Source of the DNA: Thermosynechococcus sichuanensis E542
GTDB taxonomy: Bacteria > Cyanobacteriota > Cyanobacteriia > Thermosynechococcales > Thermosynechococcaceae
DNA: 64,000 nt
Direction: 5' to 3'
Assembly (NCBI RefSeq): GCF_003555505.1
Contig: NZ_CP032152.1
Location: 1,240,001 to 1,304,000 of the forward strand
This document shows positions 6,253-11,683 of this stretch, piece by piece. The translations under genes were made by a program, and so were the position numbers. How positions within the stretch are numbered: the stretch's first letter is position 1; every line of letters begins with the position of its first letter. A model generated the notes under the pieces. That model saw nothing but the letters and a program-made list of their open reading frames with translations. It did no database searches and had not been told where the DNA came from.

Positions 6253-7782
6253 TCAGAACTCCAGTCGCTGGTATTCAGCCACTGAAGCAGCCGCCGGACG
6301 CGCCCGTTGGCGTGCCCAATCGCGCAGTGCCGTGACCTGCTCTTGCATCGTCTTGGAAAGGGGTTGAGTGGCACGGCTAGCGGCAATAATGTCTAACTGG
6401 GTAAACTCCCGCCCTTGAGCAAAGGCTTCGTACATGGCAGCAATGATGGCCTGCTCAATCTCGGCACCTGAAAAGCCATCACAGACATTGGCCAGTTGCT
6501 CTAGGTCAAAGCGATCAATCTCGCGACGGCGCTTGGTGAGGTGAATGCGAAAGATTTCCTTGCGCTCCTCGGCATTGGGCAAATCCACAAAGAAAATTTC
6601 ATCAAAGCGACCTTTACGCAAAAATTCACCGGGGAGCCGTTCAACGCGGTTGGCCGTCGCTAAGACAAAGACGGGAGACTTTTTCTCCTGCATCCAAGTG
6701 AGGAAGGAGCCAAAGATGCGGCTCGAGGTACCACCATCGGAATCCGAGGAACCGGCGCCGCCTGCAAAGGCTTTGTCCATTTCATCAATAAAGAGAATGG
6801 CCGGGGAAATGGACTCAGCAGTTTTCAGGGCATTGCGCAGATTGGCTTCAGAGCGCCCCACCATTGAACCGTCATAGACCCGCCCCATATCAAGGCGCAG
6901 CAGCGGTAAGCCCCAAAGGCGGGAGGTGGTTTTGGCAATTAGGGACTTCCCACAGCCGGGCACCCCCAGAATCAGCATTCCCTTGGGCTGTGGTAGGCCA
7001 TATTCCCGAGCCTTTTCACTGAAGGCGTTGGCGCGTTGGCGTAACCAAATTTTCAGTTCCTCTAGACCGCCCACCGAATCAATGGTTTCATCCACTTCCA
7101 TGTATTCGAGGATGCCGTTGCGGCGGATGAGTTGCTTTTTCTCGGAGAGGATAATGTCCACCTCGGCTTCGGTGAGGCGGCCAGCGGTGACTTTGGCTTT
7201 GCGAAAGACCTTTTCGGCTTCGTCCCGCGTCAGGCCAAGGGTGGCTTTGACGAGTTTTTCTCGTGCTTCGGGGCTGAGGCGGCGATTGCGGGGATCCAGT
7301 TGCTCGCTGAGAACTTCATCTAGTTCGTTGATACTGGGTAGGGGGTAGTCAACGACAACGATTTCTTTTTCCAGTTCGACGGGAATTCGCTGTGCCGCTT
7401 CCGGTGACATGAGAATAATGGTTTTGTGGCTGCTCTTGAAGCTGGCGATCGCGTCCCGTAAAGAACGAGTCACAGGGGGCGAATCAATGAAGGGGTGCAA
7501 ATCTTTGAAGACGTAGATGCCCGGTTCCCGTTGGTGAACAACCCATTGAATAGCAGCTTCCGGTGAGACAGTGTTGTGGTGACTATTGTTGCGGGGATGG
7601 CCATACTCGACCATGCCGTGGGTCACTGTCCAGATGTAGAGCTTGCGGGGAGACCGCCCTTGAGGCCCGACTTGACTTTGGGCAATGGTGGCGATCGCCT
7701 GCTCAGCCCGCTCTTCTTCAGAGGTCAGGAGGTAGATCAAGGGATATTGCGCTTGGATTAGGATACTCAATTCTTCTTGCAC
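6253..7782 (-). CDS. ycf46: Ycf46-like AAA+ ATPase
   Basis: AAA+ ATPase of the Ycf46 family (509 aa), kept in cyanobacteria and red-algal plastids; from memory it has been linked to control of photosynthesis and inorganic carbon use in Synechocystis. The N-terminal 200 residues are family specific. Walker A is GVPGCGKS, Walker B is ILFIDEMD, and an arginine finger region follows (RKGRFDEIF). The longest frame begins at GTG 7791, but the Shine-Dalgarno AAGGAGG abuts that codon. The in-frame GTG at 7782 is 8 nt past it and yields the family start MQEELSILIQ, so I use 7782. Confidence 0.9.
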   Translation of the reverse strand: MQEELSILIQAQYPLIYLLTSEEERAEQAIATIAQSQVGPQGRSPRKLYIWTVTHGMVEYGHPRNNSHHNTVSPEAAIQWVVHQREPGIYVFKDLHPFIDSPPVTRSLRDAIASFKSSHKTIILMSPEAAQRIPVELEKEIVVVDYPLPSINELDEVLSEQLDPRNRRLSPEAREKLVKATLGLTRDEAEKVFRKAKVTAGRLTEAEVDIILSEKKQLIRRNGILEYMEVDETIDSVGGLEELKIWLRQRANAFSEKAREYGLPQPKGMLILGVPGCGKSLIAKTTSRLWGLPLLRLDMGRVYDGSMVGRSEANLRNALKTAESISPAILFIDEMDKAFAGGAGSSDSDGGTSSRIFGSFLTWMQEKKSPVFVLATANRVERLPGEFLRKGRFDEIFFVDLPNAEERKEIFRIHLTKRRREIDRFDLEQLANVCDGFSGAEIEQAIIAAMYEAFAQGREFTQLDIIAASRATQPLSKTMQEQVTALRDWARQRARPAAASVAEYQRLEF

Positions 7783-7831
7783 AGCAATCACCTCCTTCTT
7801 TCAAGGCTGACCCAACACCCCCGCCACTGGT

Positions 7832-8155
7832 CTAGCGGGCAGACACCAACTCGACGGAGAGCGAAGGAACACTGAGGCTGTCGTCATCAATCACCGTGGG
7901 CTGATTGACCAAGGCCGTTAGCTCATCCCCCCTTAGGACAAGGGCACTAGCGCACTCTGGGCAGTGATAGACCCGATGCACATTGCCATGTTTTTGCTCG
8001 GCATATTCCGCCAGTACTTCTGGGTGAGCCAGTAGAAACTCAATGGCACGTTCAGCAAGGGTGGACATCGTTTCCTGCTCGACCACAGCGGCAATTTTTA
8101 GCTGGCGGTGCACATCGGGGGACAGATACAACGTAACCTTTTGCTTATCTTCCAT
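7832..8155 (-). CDS. Ribbon-helix-helix protein with C-terminal CxxC
   Basis: Small protein (107 aa). The N-terminus reads like a ribbon-helix-helix DNA-binding domain: the strand KVTLYLSPD, then two helices covering about residues 12-45. After a linker there is a short element HCPEC (one CxxC) that could bind zinc across a dimer. A promoter at 8188-8217 places the start of transcription inside the longer frame (open to 8233), so ATG 8155 is chosen. A near-perfect palindrome lies between the promoter and this ATG. The gene is just upstream of ycf46 on the same strand with a 49-nt gap. Targets are unknown; autoregulation is inferred. Confidence 0.7.
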   Translation of the reverse strand: MEDKQKVTLYLSPDVHRQLKIAAVVEQETMSTLAERAIEFLLAHPEVLAEYAEQKHGNVHRVYHCPECASALVLRGDELTALVNQPTVIDDDSLSVPSLSVELVSAR

Positions 8156-8287: not shown

Positions 8288-9283
8288 TTACAAGAGTGAT
8301 GGTGCCGTCCCCAACTGAGTGGCGATCGCCAGCCGCACGCCATTGACAAAATCCCATCCCGATTGGGCTTTGCGACCACTCAACTGCACTTGACTCAGCA
8401 GCAGGCGACCCTTGCCCGTCTCTACCACCGGCCCCCACCCCTTAATTAGCTCCACCACCGTACCCGGAGCGGACGATGCCTCAGGCTCGCAGACAAAAGA
8501 CTGTAGAGGTTCGGGTAATTCGGTGGCGACTTCGGACACCAATGGCCAAGTTTGCAGCAGTTTCAAGGGGGTGTTTTGCCACTGGGTGTAGGCATGGGGA
8601 TAAAAGGCGCGCACTTGGTTGTGGAGAGCGAGGGCTGATCGCCCCCAATCAATGGCATAGTCGCTTTTTTGAATGAGCGGTGCATAGGTAGCCTCAGCGT
8701 CGTTTTGGGGTTCGGGTTGAAGCTGTGGCAGTTGCTGCAAGGTTTCTAGCAGTAGGTCGGCACCCATGTCACTGAGCTTGGCACTGAGGGTAGCAGCGTT
8801 ATCCCCTAAATGAATCACAACTTTTCGCTTCAAGAGCATTGGGCCAGTGTCCATACCAGCATCCATGCGCATCGTTGTCACGCCGGTTTCCCCTTCGCCG
8901 TGGTAGAGTGCCCACTGAATGGGAGCAGCACCGCGATACTTGGGCAGCAGTGAGCCGTGGATATTGATGCAGCCGTAACGGGGAATCTCAAGGATCGACT
9001 GGGGAAGAATTTGACCGTAGGCCACCACCACAAAGACATCCGCGCCTAGCGATCGCAAGACCTCAGGCAACGCGGTATCCCGACGCAGACGTTCCGGCTG
9101 CCAGACCGGTAACCCGTGGTGAAGAGCTAAGGCCTTGACAGGCGAAGGGGATAATTGGTTGCCTCGTCCCCGTCGGCGATCGGGCTGGGTGACTACCCCC
9201 AACACTTGATGGGTCTCTGTCTCCAAAAGCCGCTGTAGGGGCGCAAGGGCAAACTCTGGTGTGCCAAAATAAACAACTTTCAA
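8288..9283 (-). CDS. fmt: Methionyl-tRNA formyltransferase
   Basis: Transfers a formyl group from 10-formyl-tetrahydrofolate to Met-tRNA for translation initiation (331 aa, usual length). The catalytic Asn/His motif NIHGSLLPKYRGAAPIQWAL is intact, as is the MDAGMDTG segment with the catalytic aspartate. The start is a TTG at 9283 giving MKVVYFGTPEFA, the normal family N-terminus, with GGGAGGG about 9 nt upstream. It lies 23 nt downstream of the RNB-family gene on the same strand. Confidence 0.96.
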   Translation of the reverse strand: MKVVYFGTPEFALAPLQRLLETETHQVLGVVTQPDRRRGRGNQLSPSPVKALALHHGLPVWQPERLRRDTALPEVLRSLGADVFVVVAYGQILPQSILEIPRYGCINIHGSLLPKYRGAAPIQWALYHGEGETGVTTMRMDAGMDTGPMLLKRKVVIHLGDNAATLSAKLSDMGADLLLETLQQLPQLQPEPQNDAEATYAPLIQKSDYAIDWGRSALALHNQVRAFYPHAYTQWQNTPLKLLQTWPLVSEVATELPEPLQSFVCEPEASSAPGTVVELIKGWGPVVETGKGRLLLSQVQLSGRKAQSGWDFVNGVRLAIATQLGTAPSLL

Positions 9284-9306: not shown

Positions 9307-11571
9307 TTAGAGATTCTCAGGGGCGTCGTCCTCAGAAGGAGGGAGGGCTTCCCCATTGTCACTGGCGCCGTTGAGATCCTCTTCTGTTGCTTGGGAACCA
9401 CCACTCATCACCGCCAAGTCCACCTGCTGGCGGTAGGAATCCACATTTTTAATCAGGACTTCAACGCGATCGCCCAAGCGGTAGCGCAAGCGGTTACGCC
9501 GCCCCGTCAAGGTTTGGGCATGGGCACGGTATTCATACCAGTCATCCTTGAGGGAACTGACGTGGACTAAGCCCTCAACATTAAAGTCAATCAGTTCCAC
9601 AAAGAAGCCATAGGATTGCACGCCGGTAATAATGCCCGAACGCACTTCGCCGATGCAAGCTTGGACTTGGCGCACCCGTTGCAGCCCCACCAAATCCTTC
9701 CAAGCTGTGTAGGTTTGCCGCTCCCGCTCTTGGAGGTGGGGGACTAATTCATTAAGGAGAGTGTCCACTTCCCGTTGGGTATCGGTGGTGAAGACAGTCC
9801 AATTCACCTGCTCCAAGCAACTGGACTCGCCAAGATTGACGCGCTCTTTTGCCCGGGGCCCTCGGCGATCGCGCCCTTCCGTCAGCAGAATGTGCAAAAT
9901 GCGCTGATTGACAATGTCAGTGTAGCGTTGCAGCGGCGAGCAGAAATGGCCATAGCCCTCGCCAGTGGCTAAGCTAAAGTGGGGCAGCGCAGCAGCAGCA
10001 TCGCTGGCGGGTTTGAGTTTATCGAGCAACAGTTCTTGCAACACGGCTGCCAGATCCGAGGTAGCCAATTGCGCCATAAAGCGCTGATAGTCGTGGGGTG
10101 TGACCTGCGAGGGATTGTCTAGGCTCAAGGGCAAGTTGAGATTTTGGCAGAGCTTGAGAAAATCCTGCACTGCATAGAGTTCGGGCACAGGCTGCGTGCG
10201 GTAGAGAGCCGGTACCCCTAACTTCGCCAAATGACGGGCAAGGAGTTCATTGGCAAGGATCACTAAGCTTGTCCAAGGGGTGACCCTCGGTAGGGGGATG
10301 GCGGGGGCGAGCCCCTCATCGGCATAGGCAAGGCTCAGGGCATCCGCTGGTGTGACTTCAATGCTCCCCCGTGCCTGTCGCTGCTCGCTCACGGCATTGG
10401 CAAGGTGAATCAGGGCACGCAACCAATCACCGGAACTATCCCCTAGGGCAAGGGTGGCCGCCACCTGCTCGCTGGTGACACAGGCATCGATGCGGATACA
10501 ACTGCGGTAAATCCTGTAGGACTGAACTTCACCGGCCGTGTTAATTACAATCAGCAGCGAAATAGCAGCGCGATCGCCCCCCGGCAGCAAGCGCAGCCTC
10601 TCCAATTCCTGCGGCAAGAGGGGCAAACTCAGTTCAGGGGTGGCAAGGGTCATACCCAACCGCCGTGCCGTACGATCCAGCAGTTCATCGCGCGGGAGTA
10701 AGCCCCCCACATCGCTAATGTGAATCCCCAAATGCCAGCGATGGGCATCAATTGGATCGAGGGAAAAGGCCACTTGGGGTTCTTGGCCGGGAGCCACTAA
10801 GGTAATGGTGACCAGTTCCCGCAGGTCTTGGCGATCGCTCAAGTCCAAGGTTGCCAACTGGGCATTCAAAGTCGCTGCCGCTGTGCGCACCGCTGGGCTA
10901 AATTGCCGCATGAGGTTATGCTTGCAGCAAATCAAGTCCAAGGCAGGCGCCGATTGGGCATCACTCCCTAGGATCTGGCCAATTTCCCCGATGGGTAGGT
11001 AGCCCCCCAAGGGATAGCGGCGAATGTTCACATGAACCAGTTGATCCACCACCGTGGAGAGATCGGGCACAAGGTCATTGGGTTCAAGGGCAATTTCAAA
11101 GAGCAGGCGATCGTCGAGGGGTATGGCACGAAAACCATCTTCGGTTTGCTTGACCCGAGCAATCACTGAGGGATTCCCCCGCTCGAGGATCAGTTTTACT
11201 TCCCCCTCTGGGGACTTTTTGCGGCGGCCTTCACGGGTGACCCGCACCAGCACGCGATCGCCATTCCAAGCGGTACTGAGTTGATGCTCGCGCACAAAAA
11301 TATCTTCGGCACCCTCGGTATCTTGAATGGCAAAGCAAAAGCCCTTGCTGGAGCAGCGCAGCCGCCCTTCAATCAACCCATCATCACTAGTGCGGCGATA
11401 CTTGCCCCGTTCTTTGATGAGCAAGCCAATCCGTTCTAGGGCATCAAGGGCAATTTCCAGTTCTCGCTGGCTCTCAGGATCGTCACAGCCGAGTTTTTTT
11501 TCGAGAACTTTGGGGGCAACAAATTTATCTTCGCTAAAGTTGGCAAGCAGACTGGCAATCGTAAAATGCAT
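9307..11571 (-). CDS. RNB-domain (RNase II/R family) protein, acidic active-site motif apparently missing; Zam-like
   Basis: Protein of 754 aa with RNase R layout: an N-terminal winged-helix-like segment, a cold-shock-like RNA-binding segment (about 65-140), a central RNB domain (about 245-600) and a C-terminal S1 domain (about 640-725). The late RNB motif YGHFCSPLQRYTD is conserved. The early motif, which in active enzymes holds four metal-binding aspartates (DxxDAxDxDDA type), is not visible: the region near residues 249-290 goes from VTITLVAPG straight to FSLDP and HLGIHISDVGG. It may therefore bind RNA without degrading it. Cyanobacteria carry a second RNB paralogue called Zam (acetazolamide resistance), which this may be. 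Start: ATG 11571 preferred over TTG 11577; neither has a strong ribosome site. Confidence 0.85.
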   Translation of the reverse strand: MHFTIASLLANFSEDKFVAPKVLEKKLGCDDPESQRELEIALDALERIGLLIKERGKYRRTSDDGLIEGRLRCSSKGFCFAIQDTEGAEDIFVREHQLSTAWNGDRVLVRVTREGRRKKSPEGEVKLILERGNPSVIARVKQTEDGFRAIPLDDRLLFEIALEPNDLVPDLSTVVDQLVHVNIRRYPLGGYLPIGEIGQILGSDAQSAPALDLICCKHNLMRQFSPAVRTAAATLNAQLATLDLSDRQDLRELVTITLVAPGQEPQVAFSLDPIDAHRWHLGIHISDVGGLLPRDELLDRTARRLGMTLATPELSLPLLPQELERLRLLPGGDRAAISLLIVINTAGEVQSYRIYRSCIRIDACVTSEQVAATLALGDSSGDWLRALIHLANAVSEQRQARGSIEVTPADALSLAYADEGLAPAIPLPRVTPWTSLVILANELLARHLAKLGVPALYRTQPVPELYAVQDFLKLCQNLNLPLSLDNPSQVTPHDYQRFMAQLATSDLAAVLQELLLDKLKPASDAAAALPHFSLATGEGYGHFCSPLQRYTDIVNQRILHILLTEGRDRRGPRAKERVNLGESSCLEQVNWTVFTTDTQREVDTLLNELVPHLQERERQTYTAWKDLVGLQRVRQVQACIGEVRSGIITGVQSYGFFVELIDFNVEGLVHVSSLKDDWYEYRAHAQTLTGRRNRLRYRLGDRVEVLIKNVDSYRQQVDLAVMSGGSQATEEDLNGASDNGEALPPSEDDAPENL

Positions 11572-11683
11572 CGGCAACTCGGTGAAGGGAGGGCAACAGT
11601 GGATGTAGCGTTGTTGGCGTCAAGTATCCAAACTGTAGCTTATCACAGTTGCAGGAGTCTCTTAGGGGATCCCCAATCTGTCC

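Follow-up and report, generated by a model that had tools for sequence, protein, structure and literature searches.

The window analysed here is a stretch of 64,000 nucleotides from the genome of Thermosynechococcus sichuanensis E542. Its minus strand carries, at 9307..11571, a gene encoding a protein of 754 amino acids from an ATG codon. Pfam models for RNB, OB_RNB, CSD2 and S1 match this protein, and its sequence points to a zam ortholog encoding an RNB-family pseudonuclease. The open reading frame also runs from a TTG located two codons upstream of the ATG (9307-11577, 756 amino acids). The methionine of the ATG falls among the columns that are conserved at 95% or more in 107 aligned Zam rows, so that the start at 11571, used in an earlier note on this DNA, is likely the true one. 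The residue numbers V261, Q268, V269, Q550, A312, S369 and W626 and the Pfam ranges given below follow the TTG frame, and the cysteines C73 and C79 are counted from the ATG.

Pfam places OB_RNB at residues 71-129, followed by CSD2, RNB at residues 249-566 (PF00773, 214.1 bits) and S1 at residues 642-722. On the minus strand of the window, CSD1 (OB_RNB) corresponds to 11191..11367, the RNB domain to 9880..10833 and the S1 RNA-binding domain to 9412..9654. The N-terminal segment (11368..11571, minus strand) probably forms a winged-helix-like region as in RNase R: the phmmer alignment to the RNase R structure 8cdu begins at residue 20 and helices are seen in the structure model, while the Pfam search matched no model for an N-terminal winged helix in this protein. 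RNase II is not known to have such a region. The protein resembles RNase R in domain order and fold and matches its profile better than that of RNase II. Its best NCBIfam match is TIGR02063 (RNase R, 338.6 bits), and RNase R 8cdu is also the nearest sequence with a solved structure (E = 3e-66, phmmer). It differs from RNase R in that this score lies under the NCBIfam cut-off (597.85) and in that the residues equivalent to D201, D209, D210 and R500 of RNase II are replaced.

Directly downstream of zam, at 8288..9283 on the same minus strand, lies a gene that the earlier note had named fmt and that we also take, from its sequence, to encode methionyl-tRNA formyltransferase. The adjacency, described there as zam being kept next to fmt, is true for this locus. 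Among 187 zam loci, in which some organisms are counted twice and some flanks are short, fmt was found downstream of zam on the same strand in 6 loci, all from Thermosynechococcus; one further locus (L099) has it on the opposite strand. By comparison, a gene that we take from its sequence to be ubiX-like lies downstream of zam in 131 of the 187 loci, and none of six neighbour markers was found in 47. A conserved zam-fmt operon is ruled out by these counts. The fmt neighbour, which distinguishes the window from the ubiX arrangement of other Zams, is therefore a local rearrangement. In the six Thermosynechococcus loci, the divergent genes upstream of zam are presumably acpP and fabF, as named from their sequences.

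In the alignment with E. coli RNase II and RNase R, the RNase II aspartates D201, D209 and D210 correspond to V261, Q268 and V269 of the window protein. D207 has no aligned residue, the loop being 8 residues long instead of 9, and a Glu occurs at the D207 spacing when counted back from the conserved Ala. The degenerate catalytic loop reads VTITLVAPGQEPQVAFSLDP (residues 256-275; 10753..10812, minus strand). The stretch VTITLVAPGQEPQVAFSLD is the same in all 6 Thermosynechococcus sequences compared, and only the next residue (the final P) varies. Beyond the metal ligands, R500, Y253, Y313 and E542 of RNase II align with Q550, A312, S369 and W626, respectively. The late motif YGHFCSPLQRYTD, which the earlier note had presented as conserved, has also decayed: a Gln (codon at 9928..9930, minus strand, in SPLQRYTD) stands where RNase II has R500.

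The active-site alignment is credible, since the columns concerned hold D, D/E, D, D in all 30 rows from Rnb paralogues, other RNB proteins and the two E. coli enzymes. At these columns, the window protein reads V, -, Q, V. The earlier description of an RNase R layout with a missing acidic site is thus confirmed, and a search for acids at all four catalytic positions, run with E. coli RNase II and RNase R, Rnb and Zam rows, leaves it standing. From the sequence, we infer a loss of nuclease activity: having lost its metal ligands and its catalytic Arg, the window protein is most likely unable to hydrolyse RNA. As RNA-channel residues are also replaced in Thermosynechococcus, it is possible that no RNA enters the RNB pore at all. 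For this genus, a ribonuclease annotation of zam would be misleading. Our search for literature on the tolerance of RNase II to changes at D207 found nothing usable.

Zam proteins have been described by Thomas et al. (2022; PMC9145284) as a cyanobacterial RNB clade with degenerate active sites. In PCC 7002, Zam has two redox-active cysteines in CSD1 (C73 and C79), plays a role in phycocyanin synthesis and in the photosystem ratio, and shows a redox mobility shift and a cysteine requirement (PMC9145284). According to the available text of the same paper, algae and plants were queried and Zam was found in none. The Zam of Synechocystis 6803 (acetazolamide-resistance protein) is sll1910 (PMC10989914). 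The window protein has the same full-length organization (CSD1, CSD2, RNB, S1) and a degenerate acidic site. It shares 43-51% identity with full-length Zam in most families sampled and about 26-39% in families f19 and f18, and, in a tree built from 73 Zam rows plus one RNase R, it groups with L007 (SH-aLRT 99). Moreover, both cysteines of the L12 loop are present in its CSD1 (loop C-S-S-K-G-F-C; 11335..11355, minus strand), with the same numbers, 73 and 79, as in PCC 7002. As judged by sequence, the window protein is the Thermosynechococcus ortholog of Zam and is distinct from Rnb. The dead protein and the Zam-type regulator, between which the earlier note had hesitated, would then be one and the same, a predicted Zam-type pseudonuclease. 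It is a further, unusually decayed member of a family already described, and is more decayed than most Zam rows, with the catalytic Arg and the channel Tyr and Glu replaced and a loop shorter by one residue.

We found zam matches in 145 of the 291 genomes of a phylum sample. Among these, 141 belong to the class of the window and the other 4 matches are weak; the 126 genomes outside the listing may include some of this class. Matches were also found in 145 out of 145 genomes of one family. For residue counts, 184 distinct Zam rows were scored (107 from the genome sample, 76 from named contigs, and L233), including one fragment without the site (L122). The two CSD1 positions are occupied by Cys in 182 and 181 of these rows, respectively. 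Strict invariance of the pair is not upheld in the 184 rows: two f18 genomes are without both cysteines, and a Gly replaces the second one in L027. These two f18 copies of zam are otherwise unusual, L122 being split over two frames (281 and 475 aa) and L106 having an open frame of only 699 aa. In L112, a second copy of the C-terminal part of Zam (about 7558-8088) lies beside a run of N and is probably an assembly artefact.

The sequence shows 93% identity to a contig named as Thermosynechococcus, in agreement with the genus. The E542 genome (2.65 Mb, one contig) contains one other RNB gene, an Rnb of the sll1290 type. Its product has acids at all four sites, where it reads TIDDESTQEIDDG, and an intact SPIRRY motif. 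The window protein is related to it as an RNB-family protein (25.7% identity across residues 160-581). Cyanobacterial Rnb differs in keeping D, E, D, D and R500 and in being without the Zam CSD1 loop (Cys at column 75). The same genome has one RNase E/G gene above the cut-off (G000:C1:1060701); this gene and the Rnb with its four acids are potential partners of Zam. In at least three cyanobacterial genomes, a further RNB type with all four aspartates (L139, L140 and L141) occurs beside Zam and Rnb. In six genomes of family f19, the RNB-domain frames of Rnb are 398-446 aa long vs. mostly 670-715 aa elsewhere, which suggests that Rnb is shortened in part of this family. A Zam-like active outgroup was also sought outside the class with four queries: among the genomes of 14 relatives, 4 had RNB proteins, which best matched Rnb, not Zam.

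None of the 184 Zam rows has all four acids, in agreement with PMC9145284, which reports that these acids are absent from most Zams and that the canonical site is found in none. D201, D209 and D210 are present together in 15 rows and the D209-D210 pair in 30, the D207 position being non-acidic in all 30. An acid at the 207 spacing was found in 12 rows, all without the pair. The rows with the pair keep R500 (29 out of 30), Y313 (30) and E542 (28). The corresponding numbers are 61, 25 and 81 for the 83 rows with E-N instead of the pair, and 5, 23 and 34 for the 70 remaining rows.

We also considered an extra set of 90 Zam loci, drawn from three orders by taking the 30 highest-scoring ones in each (matches in 51 of 57, 33 of 36 and 42 of 42 genomes). 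At least 5 of these loci come from genomes already scored, and this selection by score favours sequences similar to the query, a pair-bearing Zam. Within this set, D209-D210, R500, Y313 and E542 are kept in 90 loci out of 90, as are both CSD1 cysteines. Y253 is kept in 81 loci (7 Phe and 2 His in the others) and D201 in 60, and none has an acid at 207. In the 72 rows left after removal of near-copies, 97 of the 346 RNB columns (28%) show one residue at 97% or more. With such a proportion of invariant columns, chance is an improbable explanation for the invariance of all five named columns (about 0.002 under independence). RNB-profile scores reach 342 bits in pair-type Zams vs. 273 bits in Rnb paralogues.

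In a tree of 74 rows, the 11 rows with the D209-D210 pair cluster in a single clade (SH-aLRT 89). Repeated independent loss of the pair is not supported, as the grouping of the 62 pair-less rows in one clade was not rejected (p-AU = 0.837); the log-likelihood of this constrained tree was 14.45 above that of the free search. The root is unsafe, with long branches, because E. coli RNase R is the sole outgroup. Not every Zam may be a pseudonuclease. In a large clade, sampled in three orders, selection apparently maintains D209-D210 (the most critical acid pair), the catalytic Arg, Y313, E542, mostly Y253 and, in two thirds of the loci, D201, with D207 always replaced. Its members may be slow or specialised exonucleases; a nuclease-independent function would therefore be ancestral, catalysis having been lost later to different depths, with Thermosynechococcus at the fully dead extreme. 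We consider this scenario possible though doubtful. The available text of the literature searched on Zam contains no mention of a graded decay of the active site.

The structure modelling proposed in the earlier note gives an RNase R fold. The AlphaFold2 model has a mean pLDDT of 85.9 and a pTM of 0.81 (37 aligned sequences), and RNase R structures top both structure searches (8cdu with E = 1.4e-47 in one; Z of 39-40 in the other, with 8cdv at Z = 40.0 over 421 residues and 11.5 A, and 7did at Z = 39.4 over 609 residues and 4.0 A). Such a predicted fold is silent on activity. The RNB domain is the least conserved in Zam: across 107 rows, one of them a fragment, the mean column entropy is 2.17 in RNB, 0.97 in S1 and 0.69 in CSD1, and these last two domains are the most conserved ones in the window protein as in the family. 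Compared with three congeners, zam displays dN/dS values of 0.096, 0.110 and 0.089, i.e. purifying selection, with 0.00-0.05 in CSD1. Higher values (0.40, 0.64 and 1.14) were observed in residues 255-285 (31 codons), around and behind the former active site, which is the sole segment for which a higher dN/dS was tested and seen.

For the window protein itself, the observations are thus its orthology, the loss of catalytic and channel residues, the kept cysteines, CSD1 and S1, and the RNase R fold of the model. In our opinion, with a probability of roughly 0.6, Thermosynechococcus Zam is an RNase R-like protein that most likely does not hydrolyse RNA and is kept by purifying selection for its RNA- and protein-binding domains. 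Its likely role would be to act, under redox control and without cutting, as a partner of RNA and of RNase E. The redox and RNase E effects come from PCC 7002 and Anabaena 7120, respectively, and Thermosynechococcus Zam would behave in the same way by analogy. Several observations argue against parts of this role. RNA binding was not seen with the purified Zam of PCC 7002, with the caveat that the protein aggregated (PMC9145284). The binding of Alr1240 (Anabaena 7120) to RNase E and the stimulation of its activity come from one Anabaena study, summarised in a review that describes Alr1240 as RNase II-like in activity (PMC10989914). In addition, two genomes of one family are without the cysteine pair, and another genome keeps only the first cysteine.

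Zam might instead act in the manner of the fungal pseudonuclease Ssd1 rather than as a degradosome partner. Ssd1 (7am1) matches our model in both structure searches (Z = 34.7, 611 residues, 5.8 A). It descends from an active nuclease and has lost the active site with conservation of its cold-shock domains (PMC8097288), the same conservation pattern as in Zam; like other fungal pseudonucleases derived from Dis3L2, it has kept the nuclease fold. These proteins are eukaryotic, and a cysteine pair is not mentioned in the available text of PMC8097288. The RNase E complex and stimulation reported for the Anabaena ortholog (PMC10989914) point to the degradosome. An Ssd1-type function of Zam is, in our view, unlikely.

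At locus L233, zam is followed by genes that we take from their sequences to be ubiX-like and lapA-like, by a small minus-strand frame, and by what are presumably shikimate kinase and argB-like genes. The Rnb gene of the same genome (L232) follows genes presumably encoding L33- and S18-like proteins. The Zam encoded at L233 shares 96% identity with the one of Anabaena subtropica (FACHB-260), from the same genus group. In Anabaena 7120, alr1240-alr1241-alr1242 form one transcription unit (PMC10287535) and alr1244 encodes shikimate kinase (PMC4005646). As both fit the L233 order, Alr1240 is Zam by gene order, and PMC9145284 also calls it Zam. A search for literature on the locus tags beside all4450 or argB found nothing usable.

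Alr1240 is reported to degrade unstructured RNA (PMC10989914), and an active, RNase II-like Zam conflicts with the view of a dead site. In the Nostoc-type named Zam rows (32 out of 32), position 207 has no acid, 209 is E, 210 is N and R500 is kept. Alr1240 would then be active in spite of missing the usual acids, unless the activity measured had another origin. The activity reported for Alr1240, together with the Glu near the D207 spacing, would be in favour of a window protein that is still a nuclease through a rearranged or alternative site. However, D201, D209, D210, R500, Y253, Y313 and E542 are all replaced in Thermosynechococcus, D209N alone abolishes RNase II activity (PMC3293843), and no activity was seen for PCC 7002 Zam, the aggregation of the protein being a caveat (PMC9145284). 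We hold such a residual nuclease to be very improbable. Finally, a decaying pseudogene kept by chance, despite the high dN/dS values of residues 255-285, is hardly conceivable and is ruled out by the overall dN/dS of about 0.1, the gene also having a full open frame, an intact copy in all 6 Thermosynechococcus loci and its matches in the 141 genomes of the class and in every genome of one family.

A published RNase E partner described as RNase II-like in activity is, by gene order, a Zam. If the graded reading of the site is true, a residual weak site, or else some other source, would be needed to explain the activity of Alr1240. The family spans a natural series, with three-Asp sites at one end and fully dead sites at the other, and the view of the family matters more than that of a single protein. 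With this series and with Alr1240 as a Zam, the role of Zam in RNA decay, whether that of a scaffold or that of a nuclease, is therefore directly testable, as is whether the light-driven redox state acts through Zam.
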